Source of the DNA: Acinetobacter sp. SAAs474
GTDB lineage: Bacteria > Pseudomonadota > Gammaproteobacteria > Pseudomonadales > Moraxellaceae
Length of the DNA: 64,000 nt
Assembly (NCBI RefSeq): GCF_032823475.1
Contig: NZ_CP127913.1
Location: 62,001-126,000 of the forward strand
Direction of reading: 5' to 3'
The notes below the pieces were generated by a model. That model did not search any database, had not been told where the DNA came from, and was given only the letters and a program-made list of their open reading frames with translations. Every line of letters begins with the position of its first letter. Position 1 is the stretch's first letter. This document shows, in pieces, positions 24,197 to 34,571 of the stretch. The position numbers were made by a program, and so were the translations under genes.

Positions 24197-25489
24197 CTAT
24201 TGATTGCTATTTTTAATATTTTTAATAGAAATATAGCTAAATAATTGTAAAATAATTATATATAAGAAAAATATATTCCAACTGTAATTGTTAATTAAAA
24301 AAGATGCAATTGGGACCGTAATTAATAAAGAAGCCGTCGATAGAGATGATGCTATAGAATATTTAAATGATGCTCTTGGTTCATCTATTGATCGCATTAG
24401 AAAATTTGAGAAAGTATAAGTGATGAAGCTGGAAGAGATGATATTAAGTGAAAATAAAATTATTAAAGCACTCTTGCTTTTATAATCTAGTGAATTTATA
24501 AGAATAAAAAGAAATATATTTGTGGTTTTTAAAATTAATGATGTAATCATTATTGATTTTAATGAAAATATTTTAGTTATATGTGGCCATAGATATCCGC
24601 ATAATAAGACAGCTAGTAAAGGGAGTATGATGTTAATTGTTCCAAAATATTCAAGCGTTAATTTAAATTCTTTGATTAAAAAAATTATAACAAATGATGA
24701 TAATGTTAAGTCGAATAGCTTATAGAATATTAAATAAATATATATTTCTTTTAGGCTATTAAAAACCGATTTTGATTCTTTAAAATTGTAAAGGCTTGTT
24801 GTTGCAATGAAGAATATTGAAATAATAGGAATCAATAACAATAGATGATATTTTTGTTTTTTGAAAAATTGTAACATTAATTTAAAACTTGATATTGAGA
24901 AAATCAAAGTACAAGCTAAAAATATAAAAGATGAAAATATAAATAAATAATTTAGATCTCCTTTGAATATAAGATTGAAAAGGAAAATTATTCCACCTCC
25001 TGCGAATATTGATGAGATCCTCCAGCCAAATATATGTAATGAAAGGGGGTGATGACGATTATCACTATTATAATTTTTAATTAAGTTTATATCTGTTAAT
25101 ATGTCAAAGCTAGCACCTAAGAATGCAAGATTAAATAGCATTATGTAAAAAAATTCCTTATTGCTGTTAATGGCTAAAACTAATATCAGGAAATTGAAAC
25201 CTATAATCATTACAAATAAAGATAACCAATTGTGAATATTTTTTGCCTTTATGTCATCTGCAAATCCACTCCATAAAAATTTAAAGGAATATGGAAGTAG
25301 TACGAAAGCCAATGAGGATATAAATGTTATTGAATAGCCTAAATCAGTTAGAACGGCTTGTAATGTTATTGTAAGAAAGCAATATATATATCCTGATAAA
25401 AAACCATAGCTAAAAATTTTCACTCGATTTGTGTTGTGCAATTTTTCATCACTTAAACTGGTTTTTATATTTAAAGTGTTTTTAGCCAT
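24197..25489 (-). CDS. AmpG-like MFS transporter
   Basis: 430 residues with about 12 hydrophobic spans. The early LLPYSFKFLWSGFADDIK resembles the signature of the AmpG muropeptide permease family (KFLWAPLVD). AmpG imports muropeptides; relatives in biosynthetic loci move peptides or sugar-peptides. Placed after the biosynthetic genes, it is most likely the exporter or importer of the product. It is convergent with the 20452 operon across the IS and has the same very low GC as the locus. Confidence 0.75.
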   Translation of the reverse strand: MAKNTLNIKTSLSDEKLHNTNRVKIFSYGFLSGYIYCFLTITLQAVLTDLGYSITFISSLAFVLLPYSFKFLWSGFADDIKAKNIHNWLSLFVMIIGFNFLILVLAINSNKEFFYIMLFNLAFLGASFDILTDINLIKNYNSDNRHHPLSLHIFGWRISSIFAGGGIIFLFNLIFKGDLNYLFIFSSFIFLACTLIFSISSFKLMLQFFKKQKYHLLLLIPIISIFFIATTSLYNFKESKSVFNSLKEIYIYLIFYKLFDLTLSSFVIIFLIKEFKLTLEYFGTINIILPLLAVLLCGYLWPHITKIFSLKSIMITSLILKTTNIFLFILINSLDYKSKSALIILFSLNIISSSFITYTFSNFLMRSIDEPRASFKYSIASSLSTASLLITVPIASFLINNYSWNIFFLYIIILQLFSYISIKNIKNSNQ

Positions 25490-25552: not shown

Positions 25553-26157
25553 TTAAAAAGTCATTAAAAAAACTATTTTTAATTTACTGTTGTTCGTTAA
25601 ATACGCTCTTAATAAATATATTTCATTCCATGATCTATTTTGTTCTAAAACCCAAGTTTTAGGATACTCAAATGGGTAAAATATGTCGTGAAAGTGAACT
25701 ATAATCCCAGGTTTTAGTCTGGGAATAATGTTGAAAACAATATGTCACTTCTAGATTTAGCTATGTGTGATGAGTCAATAAATATTATATCGTTTGCATT
25801 TAGGTCTTTAAATATTGAAACTTTTATATCTTGAATCATTTTTTCATATATTTCTATATTCTTTGAATCTTTTTTCTTTATTAATTTTTTTAGTCTACTT
25901 GGATTGGGGTCTATAAATGTAATTTTTGGTTTATTTTTTTCATATTCTATAACATCTAGTAAGAAGCCTGAAGAAAAACCAGAGCCAATCTCTATGATTT
26001 TATTTGGTTTGTAGCTTTTTATAATTGAGTAATATATAAAGGCATCTCCTTTTATCTGATAAAATTTTGTCAAATTTGTCAGTTATTTTAATCCATCTAT
26101 TCCATAATTTAAGCATATCTTCTATACTCAGCTCAATATTTGGAATATATTTGTTAT
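25553..26157 (-). pseudogene. Class I SAM-dependent methyltransferase, frameshifted
   Basis: The middle part (25714-26073) has IIEIGSGFSSGFLLDVIE, the SAM-binding motif I, and ITFIDPNPSRL. Upstream residues (SIEDMLKLWNRWIKITDKF) are in a second frame, and the C-terminus RLKPGIIVHFHDIFYPFEYPK in a third. Removing one C near GTGACATATTG restores the last junction. The 5' end is cut by an IS982-family fragment at 26158. It was probably a tailoring methyltransferase of the locus. Confidence 0.75.
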
Positions 26158-26687
26158 TTAAATTTTTGAGATAATGGTGTTTATTTTCTCCTTTAATCTG
26201 CTTTTTAAATCTTGGCTAATGTAGCCTCGATCCGCATAAATCTTGGCTTCTAAGCCGTTAACTAATTGCTCAACCATTTTGATGTCAGCAACATGACCAT
26301 TTGATAAAGCTGAACATGCTATTTCACCCAATTGATTCATCGCAATATGTAATTTACAACCATAAAACCAACCCATCGAACTTTTACCACGAGTTGCAAT
26401 TTTAGCTAGAGATTTATGGCGCTGAATCCGTTGATTTTTACAGACTGGTAGTGTTGTTGAATCAATCCATAAATATTGTTTATCTTGACCTTTTATCAGT
26501 GACACATGTAAAGCATGTAGGGCGAGTTGGTGCATATTGCTCAAATGAATCATACGTTAATAACAAGATAAGTACTTAAATAAATGAATTTTGTCTTCTT
26601 TGAGCCATGCGAAAAAGGCTTTGAAATTATTGAAATGAGAGCATTTGTACCAAATGGCAATAAAGCAGATCTCTGAAATTGTGAGTT
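26158..26687 (-). mobile_element. IS982-family fragment
   Basis: Carries the transposase middle part (YLWIDSTTLPVCKNQRI and IYADRGYISQDLKSRL), closely related to the element at 15323. Both ends are missing: it stops at the methyltransferase remnant on one side and the IS2-like end on the other. Confidence 0.88.
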
Positions 26688-27656
26688 TGTATTAACCCCC
26701 AATTAAAACGGACACTCAAAATTAAGATCTAGGCATAGAACTAGAGTTAAGGAGTGTCTTATGGAACGTATTGAAGTTATTACATCGGCTCAACGTCGTA
26801 GACGTTATACAGGTCAACAAAAAGCACAGTTTGTTGCTATGACCATGCAACCTGGATCATCCGTTTCTTCTGTTGCTAGACAGTATGGTATTGCCCCAAG
26901 TTTACTGTTTAAATGGAAGAAACTTATGCAAGATGGTGGAGTAATTGCCGTGGAAGCCAATGATCAAGTCGTCAGTGTTTCAGACTACAATGCACTATTA
27001 AAAAAAGTAAAACAGCTTGAACAAATGCTTGGTCGAAAGATCGTCGAAGCAGAAATTCTCAAAGATGCTTTAGAGATTGCTCAGACAAAAAAGTACATAT
27101 CGCATATGCCCTTATTACCACCAGACGATACCCAACACAACAAATAGCGCTGACACTCGGTGTGGCGAGATCGAACCTTTATCGTCGCTTAAAGCAACCA
27201 AATCCGACCTCTCGTTCGAGATATAACAAAATGGAGGATCGCATTCTATTGCCTATGATTCGGGACATCTGTGACCAACGCCCCAGTAATGGCTATAGAC
27301 GTATTACCGCACATCTTAACCGTCACTTAAAGGCAAATACGATGTCATTAAAACAAGTGAATCATAAGCGTATTTACCGCATCATGAAACAGAATGATTT
27401 ACTGCTCACTCGACCTAAACGACTTCAGAATGATCGTACACATGAGGGTAAAGTTATTGTTTCGGAGTCAAATAAAAGGTGGAGTTCGGATGGCTTTGAA
27501 ATCAAATGTTGGAATGGTGAAAAAGTAAGGGTTGTCTTCAGTTTAGACTGCTGTGATCGAGAAATTATGAGTTATGCAGCAACAACAGCAGGCATCAGTA
27601 GTGAAATGGTCTGTGACATACTTGTACAGAGTATGGAGCGACGGTTCGGTATAGTG
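26688..27656 (+). mobile_element. IS2-like IS3-family element, right end lost
   Basis: Begins TGTATTAACCCCCAATTAAA like the copy at 1644-2916 (opposite orientation), with intact orfA and the first two thirds of orfB. It breaks off just after CGGTTCGGTA, where other IS debris starts. Confidence 0.85.
26761..27147 (+). CDS. IS2-like orfA
   Basis: 128 residues, differing from 2457-2843 at one or two positions (for example GRKIVEAE for GRKTVEAE). HTH SVSSVARQYGIAPSLLFKW followed by a coiled segment. Complete. Confidence 0.88.
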   Translation: MERIEVITSAQRRRRYTGQQKAQFVAMTMQPGSSVSSVARQYGIAPSLLFKWKKLMQDGGVIAVEANDQVVSVSDYNALLKKVKQLEQMLGRKIVEAEILKDALEIAQTKKYISHMPLLPPDDTQHNK

Positions 27657-27659
27657 TAA
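27162..27659 (+). pseudogene. IS2-like orfB, truncated
   Basis: N-terminal HTH_21 segment and first rve strand (RWSSDGFEIKCWNG with the first aspartate, FSLDCCDREIM). It retains the 41 bases deleted in the other two copies but stops at MERRFGIV where the element is cut. Confidence 0.85.
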
Positions 27660-28225
27660 GCATCCGCTGAACACCACTTTTTCTCACTCCAGAATCTCGC
27701 GATAGTGTCCACTAAAATTTGATCTGACCCCCAAAAGTTAAACTTTCTTTGTTCAATAATAGTCTTTTGGACTCCACGACTTCGTATACTTTGCTTTAGA
27801 TTAGAACGCTTATTTTGTTTTTCTAATTCTTTATGCTGTTGCTGAAAGCTTCTTTCAACTGTTAACGCAAAAGAGATCAAGAAGAAAATATATGCATCAA
27901 GAACAGAAGTAAGATTGGATATCTTTGACTATATTGAGGTGTTCTACATTTCAAAACACAGACATAGCTCTAATGGTCAGTATGCGGTTTTAGCGAGAAT
28001 GCAGACGTTAATACTCTTTGCAACATTTTGGCGGTAGGACATACCGTTTTGTCTGTGGAGGCAAGATGTGGTAAAGGTCGTCCTGTGAAGCAGAAAGCAA
28101 GTGAAATCCGTAAGGAAGTTACCTAAGCGCTTTTGCTTTTAGAATCCTTTACTTAAGCTAGTCGAAAATGGTGGGAGTATGTTAAATCGATGATGCCACT
28201 GAAAAGCTGTTGCATCTGCACTTTT
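27660..28225. other. Mosaic of IS debris
   Basis: Contains an IS3-type end (TGTCCACTAAAATTTGATCT), and near 27880-27985 the last part of an IS3 orfB (KKIYASRTEVRLDIFDYIEV, SSNG). 28000-28130 has open codons ending KGRPVKQKASEIRKEVT that I do not recognise. No intact gene. Confidence 0.6.
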
Positions 28226-28437
28226 GTAAGGCTGAGATTGGAGGTTTAAATTTTAAAACAACTGGTAGTCAAAAATTAAATACTAAAACAATTGAAAATA
28301 AAAGAAATAATTTAGATTACATGTTTGGTATCGGTCTGGGTTTAACTGATAAATCTAATTTAAATGTTTTTGCTTCAATTCGCCAAGAATTTAATAATTC
28401 TCTTGAAAATTGCATTAACTACAATTTTCATTTTTAA
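28226..28437 (+). pseudogene. C-terminal fragment of the beta-barrel gene
   Basis: About 70 codons, nearly identical to the end of the beta-barrel protein at 29458-30330 (IGGLNFK...QKLNTKTIENKRNNLDYMFG ... INYNFHF). The 83 bases that follow, up to the precursor start, also match those after the full gene. It is therefore one half of a tandem duplication of the locus, with the 5' part lost in IS debris. Confidence 0.85.
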
Positions 28438-28519
28438 TGTGTTATATTATAGCATTGTGTAGAACAAAAATAATATTTTTATAAAAAAATGTACTAAAAC
28501 AATAATTAGAGAAATTTCT

Positions 28520-28846
28520 ATGAAAAATTTTTTAACTGTCTTAATCTTATCATCGTTAATTGTGACGCCTGGATTTGCTCAAGAAAAAACATCTAATACC
28601 AGTTCAGCAAGTTTAGAACTCAATCAAGTATTTGATATAGAAAAATTTGATAATATTCAGGTATTAGAACTATCTCGTCAAGAAATGAAAGATACTCAAG
28701 GTGCTTTTGTTCCATTTATACCCGTTGCTGTTGCAGTTGGTACGCGTTTTATAACAAATCAATTTGTTAGTCACCAAATTAGGAATGGCATGCTAGCTTA
28801 TAGCACCTATAGTGCTGCCAATAAAATGAATAAGAATAATAATTAA
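28520..28846 (+). CDS. Bacteriocin-like precursor 1 (Sec signal plus GG-type leader)
   Basis: 108 residues in three parts. Residues 1-20 are a Sec signal peptide (FLTVLILSSLIV, likely cut GFA/QE). Residues 21-62 are a leader ending LELSRQEMKDTQGA, with L and S at -12/-11, E and M at -8/-7 and GA at -2/-1: exactly the spacing of class II bacteriocin double-glycine leaders. Residues 63-108 are a unique core (FVPFIPVAVAVGTRF...), hydrophobic then polar. Residues 1-62 are almost identical in the precursors at 30413 and 31303, while the cores are unrelated. The core length and hydrophobicity suggest a membrane-active peptide. A small zinc-ribbon membrane protein follows 7 bases later and is the likely immunity partner. 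Confidence 0.75.
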   Translation: MKNFLTVLILSSLIVTPGFAQEKTSNTSSASLELNQVFDIEKFDNIQVLELSRQEMKDTQGAFVPFIPVAVAVGTRFITNQFVSHQIRNGMLAYSTYSAANKMNKNNN

Positions 28847-28853
28847 ATATTTT

Positions 28854-29222
28854 TTGAGTACTTATCTTTATAAGTACTCTGCTGAGTATAAATTACTTAT
28901 GAATGCCAATCCAAAGCTACATATTTATTTTTTTAACAAAAAAATCAAAAGGAAGTGCCCTTGTTGTAGACGAAATGTTGTTCATCCATTAAATTTCAAA
29001 AAATTATATCCTTATCAATGCTCATTTTGTCGATGTTATATACAACCTAGTATGCTATGGTCATCACTTACTTGTATTTTTATGGTTATAATTCAAACAA
29101 TATTATATGAAAAAAGTATGTACTTTTTAGGACATATAGTTTTTTTTGTAATAGTTGTACGCTGGATTTTTATAGATAAAATTGATGCGATGACACTGCC
29201 TTTATACGCATACGACCCTTGA
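28854..29222 (+). CDS. Zinc-ribbon membrane protein, candidate immunity 1
   Basis: 122 residues from TTG 28854, or 107 from ATG 28899; neither has a strong ribosome site. CPCC at about residues 50-53 and CSFCRC at about 71-76 form a four-cysteine zinc-ribbon-like module. After it come two hydrophobic spans (LTCIFMVIIQTILY and FLGHIVFFVIVVRWIFI). I recognise no named family. It directly follows precursor 1, in the place where the other two precursors also have a small dissimilar gene, so I infer a cognate immunity protein. A membrane location fits a membrane-active peptide. Confidence 0.55.
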   Translation: MSTYLYKYSAEYKLLMNANPKLHIYFFNKKIKRKCPCCRRNVVHPLNFKKLYPYQCSFCRCYIQPSMLWSSLTCIFMVIIQTILYEKSMYFLGHIVFFVIVVRWIFIDKIDAMTLPLYAYDP

Positions 29223-29457
29223 TTTTTTCTTTTAATCATTTTCACGTATATAATCTAAATTTTTTACTCTCCCTAAAAAACTGCTTTTTCTGCATCTGAT
29301 TTCATAAAAATTTTAACTATGGTATGTTGCTAATTTTTTGGGGTATTGGAGACAAAGCCACATATAAACTTTAAATATTGATGGGTTCTATTTTAAAATA
29401 ATTAAAAATAAATATTCTAAAGAACTACTTTAATAACAATTTTGGGAATAATTAATA
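29223..29457. other. Non-coding, probable promoter region
   Basis: AT-rich gap before the beta-barrel gene with no open frame of note. It probably carries the promoter for 29458 onward; I cannot place boxes securely. Confidence 0.35.
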
Positions 29458-30330
29458 TTGAAATATCTTTCTTTTCTACTTTTAAGCCTAACACAATTTA
29501 CTCATGCAGATCTGCCCCTAACCATTGAAAATCTCGTGTCTGATAAAGGAAAAGTCACGTTAGAACTAGGTATGATTTATGGTAATAGTAAGATTAGTAA
29601 TGCAAAATTTTCTGGATATTTCCCTGTACAGGTCTCCAATTCATCCTTTATCAATGTTCCAACAGAAGTAAAAAATGAAAAATTACAAAGTGAGTATCTC
29701 ATAGGAAGCTTAGGCGTAAAATATGGTGTTATTAAAAATTTAGATATCAGCCTACGTAGTAATTTTATTTATACCTCACACCGCTTTCTTGATATTGATA
29801 GTACAGAACAATCTCATCATAGTACGAATATTTCAGATATTGCTCTAGGTTTAAATTACCAATTCTTAGAAGATAAAAAATATCCAGCTATCGTAGGTTT
29901 TGTCGAAGGCTCTGCTTTTGAAAAAAATGAACAGAAAAATTCTTATTTTTCGAGCTGGAGTATTGGGCTAACAACTTATCGTTCTTATGATCCTATCGTT
30001 TTATCTTTAACAACAGGTTATAAATACAATCAACAACGAAAGATCAACGATGCTGATCATTTTAAACCAGCGAGCTTATTTTTCTTTAATCCTCAAGTTG
30101 CTTTTGCTGCAAATGATCGTATTTCTTTGATTGGAGGTTTAAATTTTAAAATAATTGGTAATCAAAAATTAAATACTAAAACAATTGAAAATAAAAGAAA
30201 TAATTTAGATTACATGTTTGGTATCGGTCTGGGTTTAACTGATAAATCTAATTTAAATGTTCTTGCTTCAATTCGCCAAGAATTTAATAATTCTAGTGAA
30301 ATTCGCATTAACTACAATTTTCATTTTTAA
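29458..30330 (+). CDS. Outer-membrane beta-barrel protein (MetA/FapF-like)
   Basis: 290 residues from a TTG start. The signal peptide is about residues 1-17 (YLSFLLLSLTQFTHA/DLP). The rest is alternating hydrophobic and polar strands (GKVTLELGMIYG, SLGVKYGVIKNLDISLRS, VLSLTTGYKY, DYMFGIGLGLTD), ending in NYNFHF with a terminal aromatic typical of Bam-assembled barrels. It recalls the phenol-degradation MetA type of porin, to which FapF, the outer-membrane exporter of Fap amyloid, is also compared. Between precursor genes and a periplasmic C39 peptidase, its likely job is to let the processed peptides out. A fragment of a second copy lies at 28226-28437. Confidence 0.7.
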   Translation: MKYLSFLLLSLTQFTHADLPLTIENLVSDKGKVTLELGMIYGNSKISNAKFSGYFPVQVSNSSFINVPTEVKNEKLQSEYLIGSLGVKYGVIKNLDISLRSNFIYTSHRFLDIDSTEQSHHSTNISDIALGLNYQFLEDKKYPAIVGFVEGSAFEKNEQKNSYFSSWSIGLTTYRSYDPIVLSLTTGYKYNQQRKINDADHFKPASLFFFNPQVAFAANDRISLIGGLNFKIIGNQKLNTKTIENKRNNLDYMFGIGLGLTDKSNLNVLASIRQEFNNSSEIRINYNFHF

Positions 30331-30412
30331 TGTGTTATGTTATAACATTTCGTAGAACAAAAATAATATTTCTATAAAAAAATGTACTAAAACAATAATT
30401 AGAGAAATTTCT

Positions 30413-30880
30413 ATGAAAATTTTTTTAACTGTCTTAATATCATCATCGTTAATTGTGACGCCTGGATTTGCTCAAGAAAAAACATCTAATACCAGTTCAG
30501 CAGGTTTCGAACTCAATCAAGTATTTGATATAGAAAAATTTGATAATATGCAGGTATTAGAACTATCTCGTCAAGAGATGAAAGATACTCAAGGTGCTGT
30601 TGCACCTTTAGTTGCTGTTGGTATTATGGCTGGAGGACGATTCATAACACAAAAATATGTTACACAAAATATTGCTAAATCAATGGTACAAAGTGCTGGA
30701 AACAATGTAGCTAGACAAAATAATGTTTGGGGTATAATGGCAAATACTCGATCACAAGCTAGTAATATCGCTAGAAAAAATAATATCCGAGAATTTCATC
30801 ATGGGGCTGGACAACGTTTTACTCATTATCATACATCTAATAGAAATGGTGCTCATGTATGGTATGGAAAACCTCGATAA
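30413..30880 (+). CDS. Bacteriocin-like precursor 2, nuclease-like C-terminus
   Basis: 155 residues. Residues 1-62 match precursor 1 (signal peptide, then leader ending LSRQEMKDTQGA). The core (63-155) is larger: a short hydrophobic stretch VAPLVAVGIMAGGRF, then a polar part ending FHHGAGQRFTHYHTSNRNGA and HVWYGKPR. This histidine-rich ending is like the C-terminal toxin domains of polymorphic toxins (nuclease type), so the cargo may be a small enzyme and not a pore former; this is inference. The next gene, four bases on, encodes a soluble protein, which would suit protection against a cytoplasmic toxin. The 83-base upstream spacer is shared with precursor 1. Confidence 0.72.
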   Translation: MKIFLTVLISSSLIVTPGFAQEKTSNTSSAGFELNQVFDIEKFDNMQVLELSRQEMKDTQGAVAPLVAVGIMAGGRFITQKYVTQNIAKSMVQSAGNNVARQNNVWGIMANTRSQASNIARKNNIREFHHGAGQRFTHYHTSNRNGAHVWYGKPR

Positions 30881-30883
30881 ATA

Positions 30884-31237
30884 ATGTCTACTTTTAGCTT
30901 TGTAATTATTAAAGAAAAAAGTAATTTACTTGAAAAGGACAGGTATAGAAAATACAACTTCATAAAAATTGATTATGGTTTCTATATTTATGCTCGTCAA
31001 CATATGATAATCAATAAAGATGGAAAATTAAACTCCTCTTTTTTTGATTTTATAATATTAATATCTGAAGAAATTCAATCTGATGTTATTTTACTCATCA
31101 ATATCTTAAAAAATAATGAAAGCGAAGATGATATTAAAATAAAAAATTATATGAATAAAAAAACTATTGATTTAAAAAGAAATACTATTATTAAGCATCA
31201 AACATTATATAGCTATCGCAGAATAAAACATGGATAG
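30884..31237 (+). CDS. Soluble candidate immunity protein 2
   Basis: 117 residues, no signal peptide or membrane span, charged and beta-rich at the start (FSFVIIKEKSNLLEKDRYRK), with HQTLYSYRRIKHG at the end. No family recognised. It follows precursor 2 by three bases after the stop, the same slot as genes 28854 and 31715, which are unrelated to it. A solvent-exposed immunity protein is consistent with the nuclease-like ending of precursor 2. Confidence 0.55.
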   Translation: MSTFSFVIIKEKSNLLEKDRYRKYNFIKIDYGFYIYARQHMIINKDGKLNSSFFDFIILISEEIQSDVILLINILKNNESEDDIKIKNYMNKKTIDLKRNTIIKHQTLYSYRRIKHG

Positions 31238-31272
31238 TTTAATTTTTATCTAAAAAAATAAGGAGGTTATTT

Positions 31273-31296
31273 ATGAAAAATTTTTTAACTGTCTGA
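31273..31296 (+). pseudogene. Vestigial precursor start
   Basis: ATG plus six codons (MKNFLTV) identical to the start of precursor 1, then TGA. A strong AGGAGG lies just upstream (31261-31266). The real precursor 3 starts 30 bases farther on, with the same coding sequence repeated. It is probably a footprint of cassette replacement; it could also act as a tiny leader reading frame. Confidence 0.6.
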
Positions 31297-31302
31297 TTGT
31301 TT

Positions 31303-31710
31303 ATGAAAATTTTTTTAACTGTCTTAATGTTATCATCGTTAATTGTGACGCCTGGATTTGCTCAAGAAAAAACATCTAATACCAGTTCAGCACATTTAGA
31401 ATTCAATCAAGTATTTGATATAGAAAAATTTGATAATATTCAGGTATTAGAACTATCTCGTCAAGAAATGAAAGATACTCAAGGTGCAGCTATTCCATTG
31501 ATGGCTGTTGGCGCTGGATTTGGAGGTCTATATGGCGGGTTAGGATATCCAGGATCATCAACAGCAACGGGAAAATTCTCATGGAGTGGTTTAGGCACTA
31601 GTATTGCTGTTGGTGCTGCTTCTGGAGCAGTGGGAGGGCCGATTGGAAGCGCGGTTGGAAGATATTTGACACCAAGATTGCATATTTTGGTGGGGGTGCC
31701 CAAGGTTTAA
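31303..31710 (+). CDS. Bacteriocin-like precursor 3, glycine-rich core
   Basis: 135 residues. Residues 1-62 match the other two precursors. The core (63-135) is glycine/alanine rich (AVGAGFGGLYGGLGYPGSS, TSIAVGAASGAVGGPIGSAV), as in pore-forming class II microcins and bacteriocins. After residue about 119 the ending RYLTPRLHILVGVPKV is basic; a one-base shift near GGTTGGAAGA would instead give KIFDTKIAYFGGGAQGLKP and end on the TGA that overlaps the next start. I cannot tell which is original. ATG 31303 is 36 bases from the nearest strong ribosome site, so coupling to the vestigial frame is possible. Confidence 0.7.
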   Translation: MKIFLTVLMLSSLIVTPGFAQEKTSNTSSAHLEFNQVFDIEKFDNIQVLELSRQEMKDTQGAAIPLMAVGAGFGGLYGGLGYPGSSTATGKFSWSGLGTSIAVGAASGAVGGPIGSAVGRYLTPRLHILVGVPKV

Positions 31711-31714
31711 AACC

Positions 31715-31996
31715 TTGAAGTATTTGACTCTAACTATCTTTGTATTGATAATTATCAATACAGGGATGTTTTTCCTGAATAAAAGTATAGTTGCATTTTC
31801 TATTACCAATATTTTATCTTTTACATTAGTATTATTTCAATACTATATGATTGGTAATCCAATAATTACAAAAGATTTTTACTCGAAAAATTTTCACTCA
31901 AAAGTTAGAAGAAATAATATTGCATACAATATATATACTTTAATGAGTCAAATTATATTTTTTAGTTTTATATTAGTGTTTAACTTTATTAAATGA
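31715..31996 (+). CDS. Small membrane protein, candidate immunity 3
   Basis: 93 residues from TTG 31715 with three hydrophobic segments (YLTLTIFVLIIINTGMFFL, IVAFSITNILSFTLVLFQYY, IIFFSFILVFNFI) and a basic loop FHSKVRRNN. It directly follows precursor 3 and overlaps the peptidase gene (ATGA). Size and topology resemble immunity proteins of pore-forming bacteriocins. No family is recognised. Confidence 0.55.
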   Translation: MKYLTLTIFVLIIINTGMFFLNKSIVAFSITNILSFTLVLFQYYMIGNPIITKDFYSKNFHSKVRRNNIAYNIYTLMSQIIFFSFILVFNFIK

Positions 31997-32616
31997 AATT
32001 ATTTAGTTTTTTATTTATATTAACGTCTTCAATAGCTTATGCCTCTCCAATCTACTTTAATCAATATCACGATACAATTAAAGTAAAATCATGGAAAAAA
32101 ATTCGTGATCAAAATATTATTAAACAAGACCTTGATTTTTCTTGTGGTGCAGCATCTATTGCAACATTGCTTAATGGATATTACAACCAAAAGATCACTG
32201 AGCAAGAAGTCCTAAAAATCATGGATAAGGGTGACCTTATGGCATCTTTTGATGATATGCAAAGGGCATTAGATCAATTAGGTTTTCATGCAAAAGGCTA
32301 TGCTATTTCTTTAGAGATATTACAGACATTAAAACTTCCAGTGATCGCTTATATTAAGCATCGAAAAAATGACCATTTCACTGTTATCTCAGGAATTAAT
32401 AAGAATTTTATAAGAATATCCGATCCAGCATTAGGTCAAAAAATCTTAAGCTATTCACAATTTACAAAAATGTGGCAAACTCGTACTGATGAGCACTTAA
32501 GGGGAAAAATTTTGGTAATTTTTCCTAAAGATCCAATAAATAATTCAATATTCTTTAGCAACGATATCAAGCAACCAACTGCTCAAGCCATTAAATTCTT
32601 AATATCTCAACGTTAA
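31993..32616 (+). CDS. Periplasmic C39-type double-glycine peptidase
   Basis: 207 residues. The signal peptide is residues 1-17 (LFSFLFILTSSIAYA). The peptidase C39 core has DFSCGAASIATLLNGYY with the catalytic cysteine at 51, NDHFTVISGI with histidine 128, and IRISDPALG with aspartate 144. Unlike the usual C39 domains it is not fused to an ABC transporter. The same free-standing, exported form is known as FapD of the Fap amyloid system. It should cut the three precursors after the GA of their leaders in the periplasm, after Sec export. The C-terminus after about residue 175 is an unrelated tail. It is the last gene of the operon. Confidence 0.85.
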   Translation: MKLFSFLFILTSSIAYASPIYFNQYHDTIKVKSWKKIRDQNIIKQDLDFSCGAASIATLLNGYYNQKITEQEVLKIMDKGDLMASFDDMQRALDQLGFHAKGYAISLEILQTLKLPVIAYIKHRKNDHFTVISGINKNFIRISDPALGQKILSYSQFTKMWQTRTDEHLRGKILVIFPKDPINNSIFFSNDIKQPTAQAIKFLISQR

Positions 32617-32885
32617 GGATATTCTTTTGACTATAATTGATTTTTAGTGTTATTCGATCAAATTAAAGCGACTTTCATTTTCGAAATGATAGATCACTTA
32701 TCATACGGATTGTCTCTCATTTTTAAGCAGAATTTAGATTGACTATAATGTTTTAAAAAATAAGTAAATTTTTGCTTATTAAGCATCATGTCAATCTCAC
32801 CTACATATAGGCTTGTTTTAAATTTAAATGTATATATAATGTATATACATTTTATTTGTAATTTAGCCTTTGGGAATAAAAACGT
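32617..32885. other. Non-coding
   Basis: Contains the short palindrome TCATTTTCGAAATGA at 32675-32689 and presumably the promoter of 32886. No gene seen. Confidence 0.35.
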
Positions 32886-33080
32886 ATGACTGATCAACCC
32901 AAAAAAATAAAGGCAAACAAAAAAGATGGCCAGCTCTTAATTCGTATTAATAGTCGTGAACGGGATGAGTTTATCCAACTATGCGATGAGCTCGATACGA
33001 GTGCGGCTAGAGAATTAAGAAAATTTATCCGTAGTTTTATTCAAAAAAATCAGCCAGCGGATACACATAAAATGGAGTAG
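32886..33080 (+). CDS. Small ribbon-helix-helix-like protein
   Basis: 64 residues: a lysine-rich N-terminus, then GQLLIRINSRERDEFIQLCDELDTSAARELRKFIRSFI, which fits a beta strand plus two helices as in Arc/MetJ/CopG DNA-binding proteins. Its targets are unknown. It is followed 4 bases later by a 38-residue lysine-rich coiled peptide; the two share a terminator. Confidence 0.6.
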   Translation: MTDQPKKIKANKKDGQLLIRINSRERDEFIQLCDELDTSAARELRKFIRSFIQKNQPADTHKME

Positions 33081-33084
33081 TATC

Positions 33085-33201
33085 ATGTCAAAACAGATTA
33101 AAATCTTGAAAGATAAGATTAATGCGCGTCTTGAAAAAATCTCAAAACATCAGAAAAAGCTAGACAAGTTACAACAGCAACTCAAAAAGCAAAAGAAATA
33201 A
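33085..33201 (+). CDS. 38-residue lysine-rich coiled-coil peptide
   Basis: ATG 33085 to TAA 33199-33201: MSKQIKILKDKINARLEKIS then HQKKLDKLQQQLKKQKK. Heptad spacing of I/L suggests one continuous basic coiled coil. It follows the RHH-like gene by four bases. It is likely real given the spacing and terminator, with function unknown; it may pair with the RHH protein. Confidence 0.5.
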   Translation: MSKQIKILKDKINARLEKISKHQKKLDKLQQQLKKQKK

Positions 33202-33235
33202 TATCGATCTGATGATGCTTCGATTTTAAATATGA

Positions 33236-33268
33236 AAAACCGAATTTGATCAAAATTCGGTTTTTTTA
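33236..33268 (+). terminator. Rho-independent terminator
   Basis: Stem AACCGAATTT/AAATTCGGTT followed by a run of T (33261-33267). Ends the two-gene unit 32886-33201. Confidence 0.85.
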
Positions 33269-33377
33269 TATCTGTTTTAATTTAAGAATAACGCATCGTG
33301 TGTGAAGTCAAAATTGCTTGCATGATAATTTTTTTTCGCTAAACTAACGACCGATAGGTAGTTTTTGAGATTTAATT

Positions 33378-34571
33378 ATGCATTCCTCTATTCCATTGAA
33401 AATCATTGTTTCTTTGGCCATGATTGTTGCTTTGGGTCCTGCTGCAATTGATATGTACTTAGCTTCTATGCCTGAAATGGCGAAAGACCTTAATACAACA
33501 TATGCTTCGACTCAATTAACCTTAACTGTATTTTTAATTTTTATGGGTTTAGGCCAATTATTTTTTGGCCCAATTTCAGATGCAATCGGGCGTAAGTATC
33601 CTTTATTAATCGGTTTAGTTCTTTATATTGGAGCAGCCTTTTGGGCAGCAAGTACGATGAGTATTGAAGCATTAATATTTGCGCGTGTCTTGCAAGGATT
33701 GGGAGCTGCCATGGCAATTGTGGTGGTGATGAGTATGGTACGTGATCTTGTTGATGACATTGCCGCCACACAACTTTATGCTTTATTAAATACTATTGTT
33801 GCACTTGGTCCAATTGTTGCACCAGCATTAGGAGGATTTATTGGTGCCCATTTTGGTTGGCGTGGTGTGATGTTGAGCTTATGTGCTGTAGCAAGTATAG
33901 TTTTATTAAATACACTGTTTAATATCAAAGAATCTTTAGTCGCTAAAAATCGTATTCAATTAAATTTAAAAAATATTTTACAAACTTATTTGGGTATTTT
34001 AAAACATAAAATATTTCTTTGTAATTTATTGGCATTATCGGCTGTATATTTTTTTCTGTTTGCATATATTGGTGGTTCATCCTATGTTTACCAAAATGAT
34101 TTTGGACTCAGTCTAGAACAATTTGGTTTAGTGTTTGGTTTAACCAGTATTAGTTTAGTTGCTGGTGCATCATCATCTGCATTGATGATTAAAAAGGTAT
34201 CTGCACCTTTTTTGGCCATGATGGGTGCATTATTAATGATGCTGGGTAGTGTGATGTGTATCATGACTTATGTTTTTGATATTGGTATCGTTGGTATTAT
34301 TATTGGAATTGCTTTAGGATTGTTTGGCTTAGGTATTCTTGAAGCAATTTTAATGGCATTAGCAATGAACTCACAACATCAAGCCCTAGGCTCTAGTGCT
34401 GCTTTATTGGGTGCTTTCCCGATGCTTATTTCATCAATGGCAACACCGATAGCAGGTCAATTAGTCGAAATGAATACGCTATATTGGTTGTTTTTCTTAG
34501 CCATGATTGGGCCAGTAATTTTAGCTTTAGTTTTTGTTGGTACACGTCAAACTTCGGCTCATTCACATTGA
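33378..34571 (+). CDS. Bcr/CflA-family MFS drug exporter
   Basis: 397 residues, about 12 membrane spans. ALGPAAIDMYLASMPEMA in helix 1, GQLFFGPISDAIGRKYPL (MFS motif A) and ARVLQGLGAAMAIVVVMSMVRDL (motif B/C region) are signatures of the Bcr/CflA group, which exports chloramphenicol, bicyclomycin or similar drugs. The specific substrate is unknown. A TetR-family gene follows 25 bases downstream in the same direction and probably regulates it. Confidence 0.85.
   Translation: MHSSIPLKIIVSLAMIVALGPAAIDMYLASMPEMAKDLNTTYASTQLTLTVFLIFMGLGQLFFGPISDAIGRKYPLLIGLVLYIGAAFWAASTMSIEALIFARVLQGLGAAMAIVVVMSMVRDLVDDIAATQLYALLNTIVALGPIVAPALGGFIGAHFGWRGVMLSLCAVASIVLLNTLFNIKESLVAKNRIQLNLKNILQTYLGILKHKIFLCNLLALSAVYFFLFAYIGGSSYVYQNDFGLSLEQFGLVFGLTSISLVAGASSSALMIKKVSAPFLAMMGALLMMLGSVMCIMTYVFDIGIVGIIIGIALGLFGLGILEAILMALAMNSQHQALGSSAALLGAFPMLISSMATPIAGQLVEMNTLYWLFFLAMIGPVILALVFVGTRQTSAHSH

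Follow-up and report, generated by a model that had tools for sequence, protein, structure and literature searches.

The 64,000-nucleotide stretch of Acinetobacter sp. SAAs474 analysed here (NZ_CP127913.1, positions 62,001 to 126,000; hereafter the window) is part of a plasmid of a lake Acinetobacter. At 28226-32616 its + strand carries a compact locus of three precursor genes with a common leader, three small partner genes, a gene for an outer-membrane barrel and a gene for an exported C39 peptidase. The features are listed below in their order along the strand.

28226-28437, + strand: partial second copy of the 3' end of the barrel gene (barrel hidden Markov model (HMM), 1.5e-17)
28236-28535 and 30129-30428: direct repeat, 95% identity
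28520-28846, + strand: precursor 1, 108 aa, Sec-type signal, LSRQEMKDTQGA leader and 46-aa cationic core (leader HMM 5.4e-31, its own sequence being in the training set)
28854-29222, + strand: partner gene 1, likely immunity, CxxC..CxxC region and two transmembrane (TM)-like segments, TTG start
29458-30330, + strand: FapF/NapF/HmcD-like outer-membrane barrel, 290 aa, signal peptide, TTG start
30413-30880, + strand: precursor 2, 155 aa, Sec-type signal, leader and 93-aa cationic core ending in an HYH...NGAHVWYG region
30884-31237, + strand: partner gene 2, likely immunity, at most one borderline TM-like segment, ATG start
31272-31302, + strand: remnant of a fourth precursor start, just 5' of precursor 3 (repeat D3)
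31303-31710, + strand: precursor 3, 135 aa, Sec-type signal, leader and 73-aa cationic core, 25% Gly
31715-31996, + strand: partner gene 3, likely immunity, three TM-like segments, TTG start; its stop overlaps the C39 start (ATGA)
31993-32616, + strand: exported C39 peptidase, 207 aa, NapP/HmcC/FapD-like, Cys51/His128/Asp144 (Pfam Peptidase_C39, 86.4 bits)

Precursors and machinery of the locus

The three precursors share 90-94% protein identity over residues 1-62. This part opens with a positively charged start and a hydrophobic stretch, has an alanine at position 20 and runs through an acidic spacer into LSRQEMKDTQGA. A double-glycine-type leader thus stands ahead of the core in all three, and its cut site reads GA, not GG. 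In an alignment of 18 precursors, A20, E55, M56 and G61 were invariant. The leader DNA is conserved to the same point: identity per 30-nucleotide block is 86-100% up to codon 60, 66% in the next block and lower beyond.

The cores 1, 2 and 3 have isoelectric points of 10.4, 11.8 and 10.2. The first ~42 residues of core 2 show a relationship to core 1, with a score that was reached by 0 of 2000 shuffles. Core 3 shows no clear relation to core 1 or core 2, as 168 and 71 of 2000 shuffles, respectively, reach the score. Among relatives, the precursor P0005 and that of pTR11_4 (L043; L numbers are our locus labels) have identical leaders and cores that are 25% alike. Precursor 2 and P0010 show the reverse, with leaders 27% alike and cores 82% alike. 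Judged by these sequences, leaders and cores recombine, and the exchange runs in both directions. The cores of the relatives gave nothing above cut-off in Pfam or NCBIfam; a JUQZ match to them was rejected because it lies under its cut-off and is Gram-positive.

Each precursor is followed by a different small gene. The exact starts of partners 1 and 3 are uncertain because of their TTG codons. Core 1 and partner 1 recur as a pair on the 3.1-kb Psychrobacter plasmid pA3H1 (L085:432-1010; 0/2000 shuffles each). There, the core-1-like sequence lies behind SISNQEMEATEGA (EMEATEGA) and directly 5' of the partner-1 homologue; this copy is taken to be a remnant, since its signal part is not in frame. 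The pair of core 2 and partner 2 recurs in A. rongchengensis (L032). Within the five Acinetobacter genomes that hold pieces of the system, partner 2 is present in both core-2 genomes and in none of the other three. For a third core, one and the same 108-aa partner was found in L043 and L033, and in L032 and L064 this partner is present while its core is absent. A partner-2 homologue, ~40% identical, is carried by the plasmid pPS15-1 of the Gram-positive Planococcus versutus (L067:4001-4396), and the 8.4-kb stretch around it contains no leader match. An annotated RelE/ParE-type toxin gene lies three genes downstream of this homologue. For partner 3, no homologue was found among plasmids except its own.

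The signal peptide of the C39 peptidase was recognised by eye. Its Gln45, Cys51, His128 and Asp144 are invariant in 35 of 35 aligned sequences. It bears no ATP-binding cassette (ABC) domain. The genome has two Pfam C39 matches, in frames of 207 and 198 aa, and no exporter of the size of a peptidase-containing ABC transporter (PCAT) was found. None of the eight locus proteins has an ATPase match in Pfam. The score with FilB, a family of the Fil putative pilus system, was 70.7 bits against a cut-off of 475.

The AlphaFold2 model of the barrel has twelve long strands by our own count, and its best match in the PDB is FapF. Residue 17 of the model already pairs with residue 88 of FapF in the alignment, so that the N-terminal periplasmic coiled coil of FapF would find no space in it. 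Comparison with the HmcD set gave a profile-profile E of 5.6e-25 with hhalign, and the HMM match to HmcD was 8e-28.

The anatomy given by the initial annotation, which had been made from the DNA letters, was borne out. The near-identical residues 1-62 with a Sec signal and then LSRQEMKDTQGA, the different small gene behind each precursor, the barrel protein (FapF-type in sequence and in modelled fold) and the exported C39 peptidase with its catalytic triad and no ABC transporter were all recovered. Its description of the C-terminal parts as unrelated may stand for core 3 and fails for core 1 against the N-terminal part of core 2.

The barrel 3' end, the intergenic DNA and the leader form a duplicated unit (repeats D2/D1), one copy of which extends to ~28706 and the other from 30129 to ~30599. 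Transposase-type frames lie upstream of the locus, which are IS3-family according to the annotation of the plasmid p12SAAs470 described below, and fragments of insertion sequences (IS) are nearby. No RNA family reached the gathering threshold within 26000-34000. A promoter scan gave 23 sites against 29.8 expected, which is no excess, and terminator-like sites numbered 4 against 1.8 expected. PADLOC gave no match among the seven window proteins submitted (the barrel was left out). A viral origin was dropped, as the C39 alignment picked up two distant loci in viral contigs and a search of phage records three weak matches. Large transporter-like frames are found on both flanks (24197-25489 and 33378-34571), the latter being annotated as a multidrug efflux major facilitator superfamily transporter on p12SAAs470.

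Occurrence in other genomes

The public match to the locus is plasmid p12SAAs470 of Acinetobacter sp. SAAs470 (135,520 bp; NZ_CP127894.1), with 100.0% identity across all 4,411 searched bases. Its annotation omits partner genes 1 and 3 and calls precursor 3 from an inner start. The barrel was found in 2 of 173 Acinetobacter genomes, and the same two carry a full-length C39. The precursor profile (18 rows) has matches in three of the 173, each beside a window-type C39, which is more than chance would give. The window-type C39 itself (>150 bits) is present in 4 of 175 Acinetobacter genomes, two copies being part-length, and a fifth copy is broken. C39 matches at 1e-10 occur in 145 of these 175 genomes. 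The great majority of the matches among those listed have a FilB-type look (~280-300 aa, ~30% identity), and they were kept out of the counts for this system. In the draw from the class, 7 of 369 genomes, our own included, hold a C39 at E 1e-28 or better; in the draw from the phylum, the C39 appears in its own genome only (1/398). Relatives of the C39 come from Limnohabitans, Halomonas llamarensis, Helicobacter-labelled metagenome-assembled genomes (MAGs) and Neisseria. The whole set of precursor, barrel and C39 recurs in Limnohabitans, Halomonas, Helicobacter-labelled MAGs and other proteobacteria.

Twenty-five C39 loci (26 genes) were collected, with a barrel in 20 and a leader in 17 by HMMs that had been trained on six (barrel, leader) or seven (C39) of the same loci. 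For a fairer test of the leader, a model was built from 10 precursors and run on 1430 open reading frames (ORFs) of 15 other loci. The top ranks went to nine true candidates, each from a different locus (E 7e-11 to 0.11), and the remaining six loci yielded none. The control consisted of 668 ORFs from 25 FilB loci together with L067 and L044; the latter is the window's own plasmid, and its three matches were discounted.

Sec-signal proteins starting with DD..LSxxTGQDGI in FilB-type C39 loci (among L007-L031, e.g. L020:234-1178 and L016:2281-3402) score weakly with the leader profile. They are candidate FilB substrates. A genome of the same class, G220, has four C39 matches, and its precursors of 82, 142, 273, 311 and 353 residues share the Sec-plus-glycine leader. 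Sets of barrel and C39 are spread over four of its contigs (L059-L062), with two sets on one contig. Proteins of ~277-316 residues with signal-like starts, alike by eye, adjoin the C39 in non-Acinetobacter loci (L034:7667-8605, L036:7565-8503, L054:7057-7890, L055:5485-7298 and L057:7747-8697).

Discussion

The closest parallels to the window locus carry names already. The plasmid p250 of Avibacterium paragallinarum (NC_005245.1; L078:1482-4290) has annotated hemocin genes. Like the window locus, it combines the HmcD barrel, a stand-alone C39 with a signal-like start and an immunity gene behind the precursor on a small plasmid. The hemocin structural protein starts with a Sec-type signal and continues with LSQKEMSEVKGG (EMSEVKGG), as the window precursors have their signal and leader, and the p250 C39 is 33.6% identical to the window C39 over 72% of the query. 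It differs in having a true GG site and a single Cys-rich core instead of an array. The set recurs in part on plasmids of Campylobacter volucris and C. concisus, which carry the barrel, the C39 and a similar precursor, that of C. concisus being recognised by eye only.

The gonococcal nap island, published in 2025 (Poncin), contains the C39 peptidase NapP, the FapF homologue NapF, the double-glycine (GG) peptides NapA-C, NapI and NapH (PMC11798529). In its authors' model, NapP cleaves the peptides in the periplasm and NapF exports them (PMC11798529). The island is low in GC and horizontally acquired. It resembles the window in its C39 (49% identical), its FapF-family barrel, its GG peptides and an immunity-like gene. 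On the other hand, its peptides are reported as autolytic rather than antibacterial. The paper ascribes the inner-membrane step to NapH tentatively, and the term "signal peptide" is absent from its main text (PMC11798529). In L041, a gonococcal record whose layout suggests that it is the nap island, the barrel beside the C39 is a 180-aa frame. The window barrel is 37% identical to the barrel of a second gonococcal locus, not to the one beside the gonococcal C39. That second locus (L042:8953-10401; Neisseria gonorrhoeae NZ_CP119142.1) lies beside a znuA-like frame, named by eye. Its precursor of 179 aa has a Sec-type signal, LSQKEMKETEGA and a larger core, and several small genes follow. No C39 frame was seen in the listed part of this stretch (4.1-14.4 kb), and the precursor may use the C39 of the other gonococcal locus in trans. 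The initial annotation knew of no description of this exact set. That statement has to be given up, because the p250 hemocin has the same anatomy and the nap island was published with its C39, FapF homologue, GG peptides and export model.

The window locus is quite probably a bacteriocin locus of the haemocin/nap kind with a small array of exchangeable cassettes. Judged from the leader, the precursors would be taken across the inner membrane by Sec and would lose their first ~20 residues to signal peptidase. The C39 would recognise the remaining LSxxEMxxTxG leader in the periplasm and cut after GA, a site that is predicted from the enzyme's homology to double-glycine peptidases and from the invariant E55, M56 and G61. 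Once released, the cationic cores of 46, 93 and 73 residues would use the FapF-like barrel to leave the cell and would act on others, and the gene behind each core would encode its immunity protein. New cassettes may enter by recombination in the conserved barrel-end/leader DNA. The duplicated unit and the precursor-start remnant look like recombination scars of cassette gain with the leader DNA as the joint. The export model gains support from the p250 and nap relatives and, in part, from the Campylobacter plasmids. By analogy, FapD of Pseudomonas is a physical precedent for an exported periplasmic peptidase. The initial annotation had proposed bacteriocin-type export without a PCAT. The tandem leader, the C39, the barrel and the polymorphic core/partner pairs behind that proposal recur in relatives. 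The sequences establish the anatomy, the homologies, the invariant residues, the modularity and the recurrence of pairs, while Sec passage, cleavage, export, toxicity and immunity remain predictions.

Two other known systems resemble the locus in part. PCAT class II microcins such as Mcb of Moraxella catarrhalis have a double-glycine-type leader, a short core and an adjacent immunity gene. However, Mcb uses an ABC transporter and a membrane-fusion protein (PMC2761928), whereas the window has a Sec-type signal, an exported peptidase and a barrel. MafB-type polymorphic toxins have a constant N-terminus, a variable C-terminus and partner genes as well, but MafB has a globular MafB-N domain (PMC3482391) in place of a ~62-residue leader with small cores.

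Several observations weigh against the bacteriocin reading. The signal peptides were assigned by eye and by alignment. In Pfam and NCBIfam, the cores and the window partner genes all fail to reach the cut-off for any known toxin or immunity family, and the matches of several precursors, including precursors 2 and 3, to the class IIb family TIGR03949 all lie under its cut-off. A single base near the start of precursor 1 differs between the window and NZ_CP127894.1; the signal part of this precursor is in frame in the former and out of frame in the latter. The difference could be a sequencing error or an on/off variation, as in some gonococcal nap genes. Eight of the 25 C39 loci gave no leader match (L039, L040, L041, L055, L056, L061, L064 and L080), the presumed nap island being one of these. 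The barrel is missing from five (L033, L039, L040, L056 and L064). Some of the misses come from broken copies or from the ends of contigs (L039, L040 and L064), and L061 and L080 have diverged Sec-plus-glycine precursors by eye. In the control of the leader model, a FilA-like protein gives the best true match, at 11.8 bits (E 0.0089), with more FilA-like proteins below. It outscores three of the nine true matches (the L078 hemocin, L058 and L061), which rest on gene context too. Moreover, p250 has an ATPase gene, HmcB, and none was seen at the window locus. HmcB scores better with AAA_15-type ATPases than with ABC transporters, and the annotations of the two Campylobacter plasmids show no ATPase beside the C39; an HmcB-type ATPase may not be defining for the haemocin/nap kind. 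Finally, the gonococcal peptides had no detectable antimicrobial activity, inhibited no competitor and promoted autolysis (PMC11798529), and killing by the window cores is for this reason a prediction.

The last point leads to a different role for the same export route. The peptides might act on the producer population in stationary-phase autolysis or fratricide, with the partners tuning the timing. For these closest published homologues, added mature NapA and NapC lowered stationary-phase survival, and a nap mutant autolysed less (PMC11798529). We nevertheless consider this role unlikely at the window locus, in view of the plasmid location, the core exchange between leaders, the one partner for each core and the hemocin precedent, as well as the partners that stand without a core (the 108-aa gene in L032 and L064, and partner 2 in Planococcus). 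The locus might also be a decayed one, in which the machinery is intact and the cassettes are functionless remnants. The partial barrel copy, the precursor-start remnant, the nearby IS fragments and the out-of-frame signal of precursor 1 in NZ_CP127894.1 would fit, as would the sister loci in which the C39 is broken (L064), a stop precedes GA (L034) or parts are truncated (L033 and L040). In the window, however, the three precursors, the barrel and the C39 are all open and have kept their conserved residues, which makes decay highly improbable.

A Fap-like functional amyloid or adhesin has to be weighed too, with the C39 and the barrel as FapD/FapF-type proteins and the precursors as fibre subunits. 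Pseudomonas Fap likewise pairs a periplasmic C39-type peptidase with the FapF barrel, and the window barrel is FapF-like as described above. FapD has a Sec signal, is periplasmic and needs its Cys for FapC secretion, its substrate being left open (PMC5557850). A review records fapD and fapF homologues no more than 5 kb apart in five further phyla (PMC6173800). FapD also gives the best NCBIfam score of the window C39. However, this score of 92.7 bits is far off the cut-off of 330 bits, and the barrel could not accommodate the coiled coil of FapF. The Fap proteins, which are amyloid substrates, have no canonical C39 sites (PMC5557850), and short cationic cores of unlike sequence with their own partners are unlike fibre repeats. 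No amyloid family is among the Pfam and NCBIfam matches of the precursors, although no search aimed at amyloids was made. Because leaders and cores recombine and core-partner pairs recur together, bacteriocin/immunity cassettes fit better, and we regard the amyloid as very unlikely. Secreted quorum-type signalling peptides, with the partners as receptors or regulators, are hardly to be expected. C39 peptidases also mature signals, and ComA is among the C39 matches, but Pfam gave no kinase or regulator domain in the eight proteins, the cores are cationic and 46-93 aa long, and two of the three partners have TM-like segments.

The haemocin/nap reading of the window opens a wider view. Single pieces are already in print (Fap, nap) or in annotation (hemocin), and what emerges seems to be a broader bacteriocin route that has mostly gone unrecognised, not one that is wholly new. 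The passage by Sec to a periplasmic C39 and a FapF-family barrel could be one little-recognised route for haemocin, the gonococcal Naps, the Acinetobacter and Campylobacter plasmid cassettes and the 270-350-residue precursors of one genome of the same class. It would serve polymorphic, immunity-paired cores in at least two phyla as the general Gram-negative alternative to PCAT, with Fap amyloid export as a specialised branch. We give this generalisation an even chance of being right. No statement of a common Sec, double-glycine, C39 and FapF-barrel route that unites haemocin, nap and exchangeable plasmid cassettes was found in the open-licence literature; the primary haemocin papers are outside that scope, and an earlier statement there is possible.

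If true, a Sec signal ahead of a double-glycine leader would account for the way out of the cell taken by haemocin and perhaps by the gonococcal Naps, for which the nap paper leaves the inner-membrane step open (PMC11798529). Bacteriocin mining that is tied to PCAT would miss such Sec/C39/barrel loci, and the annotation of p12SAAs470 shortens two precursors and omits two partner genes. FapD-like enzymes, the substrate of which is unsettled, would gain relatives with an obvious substrate motif.

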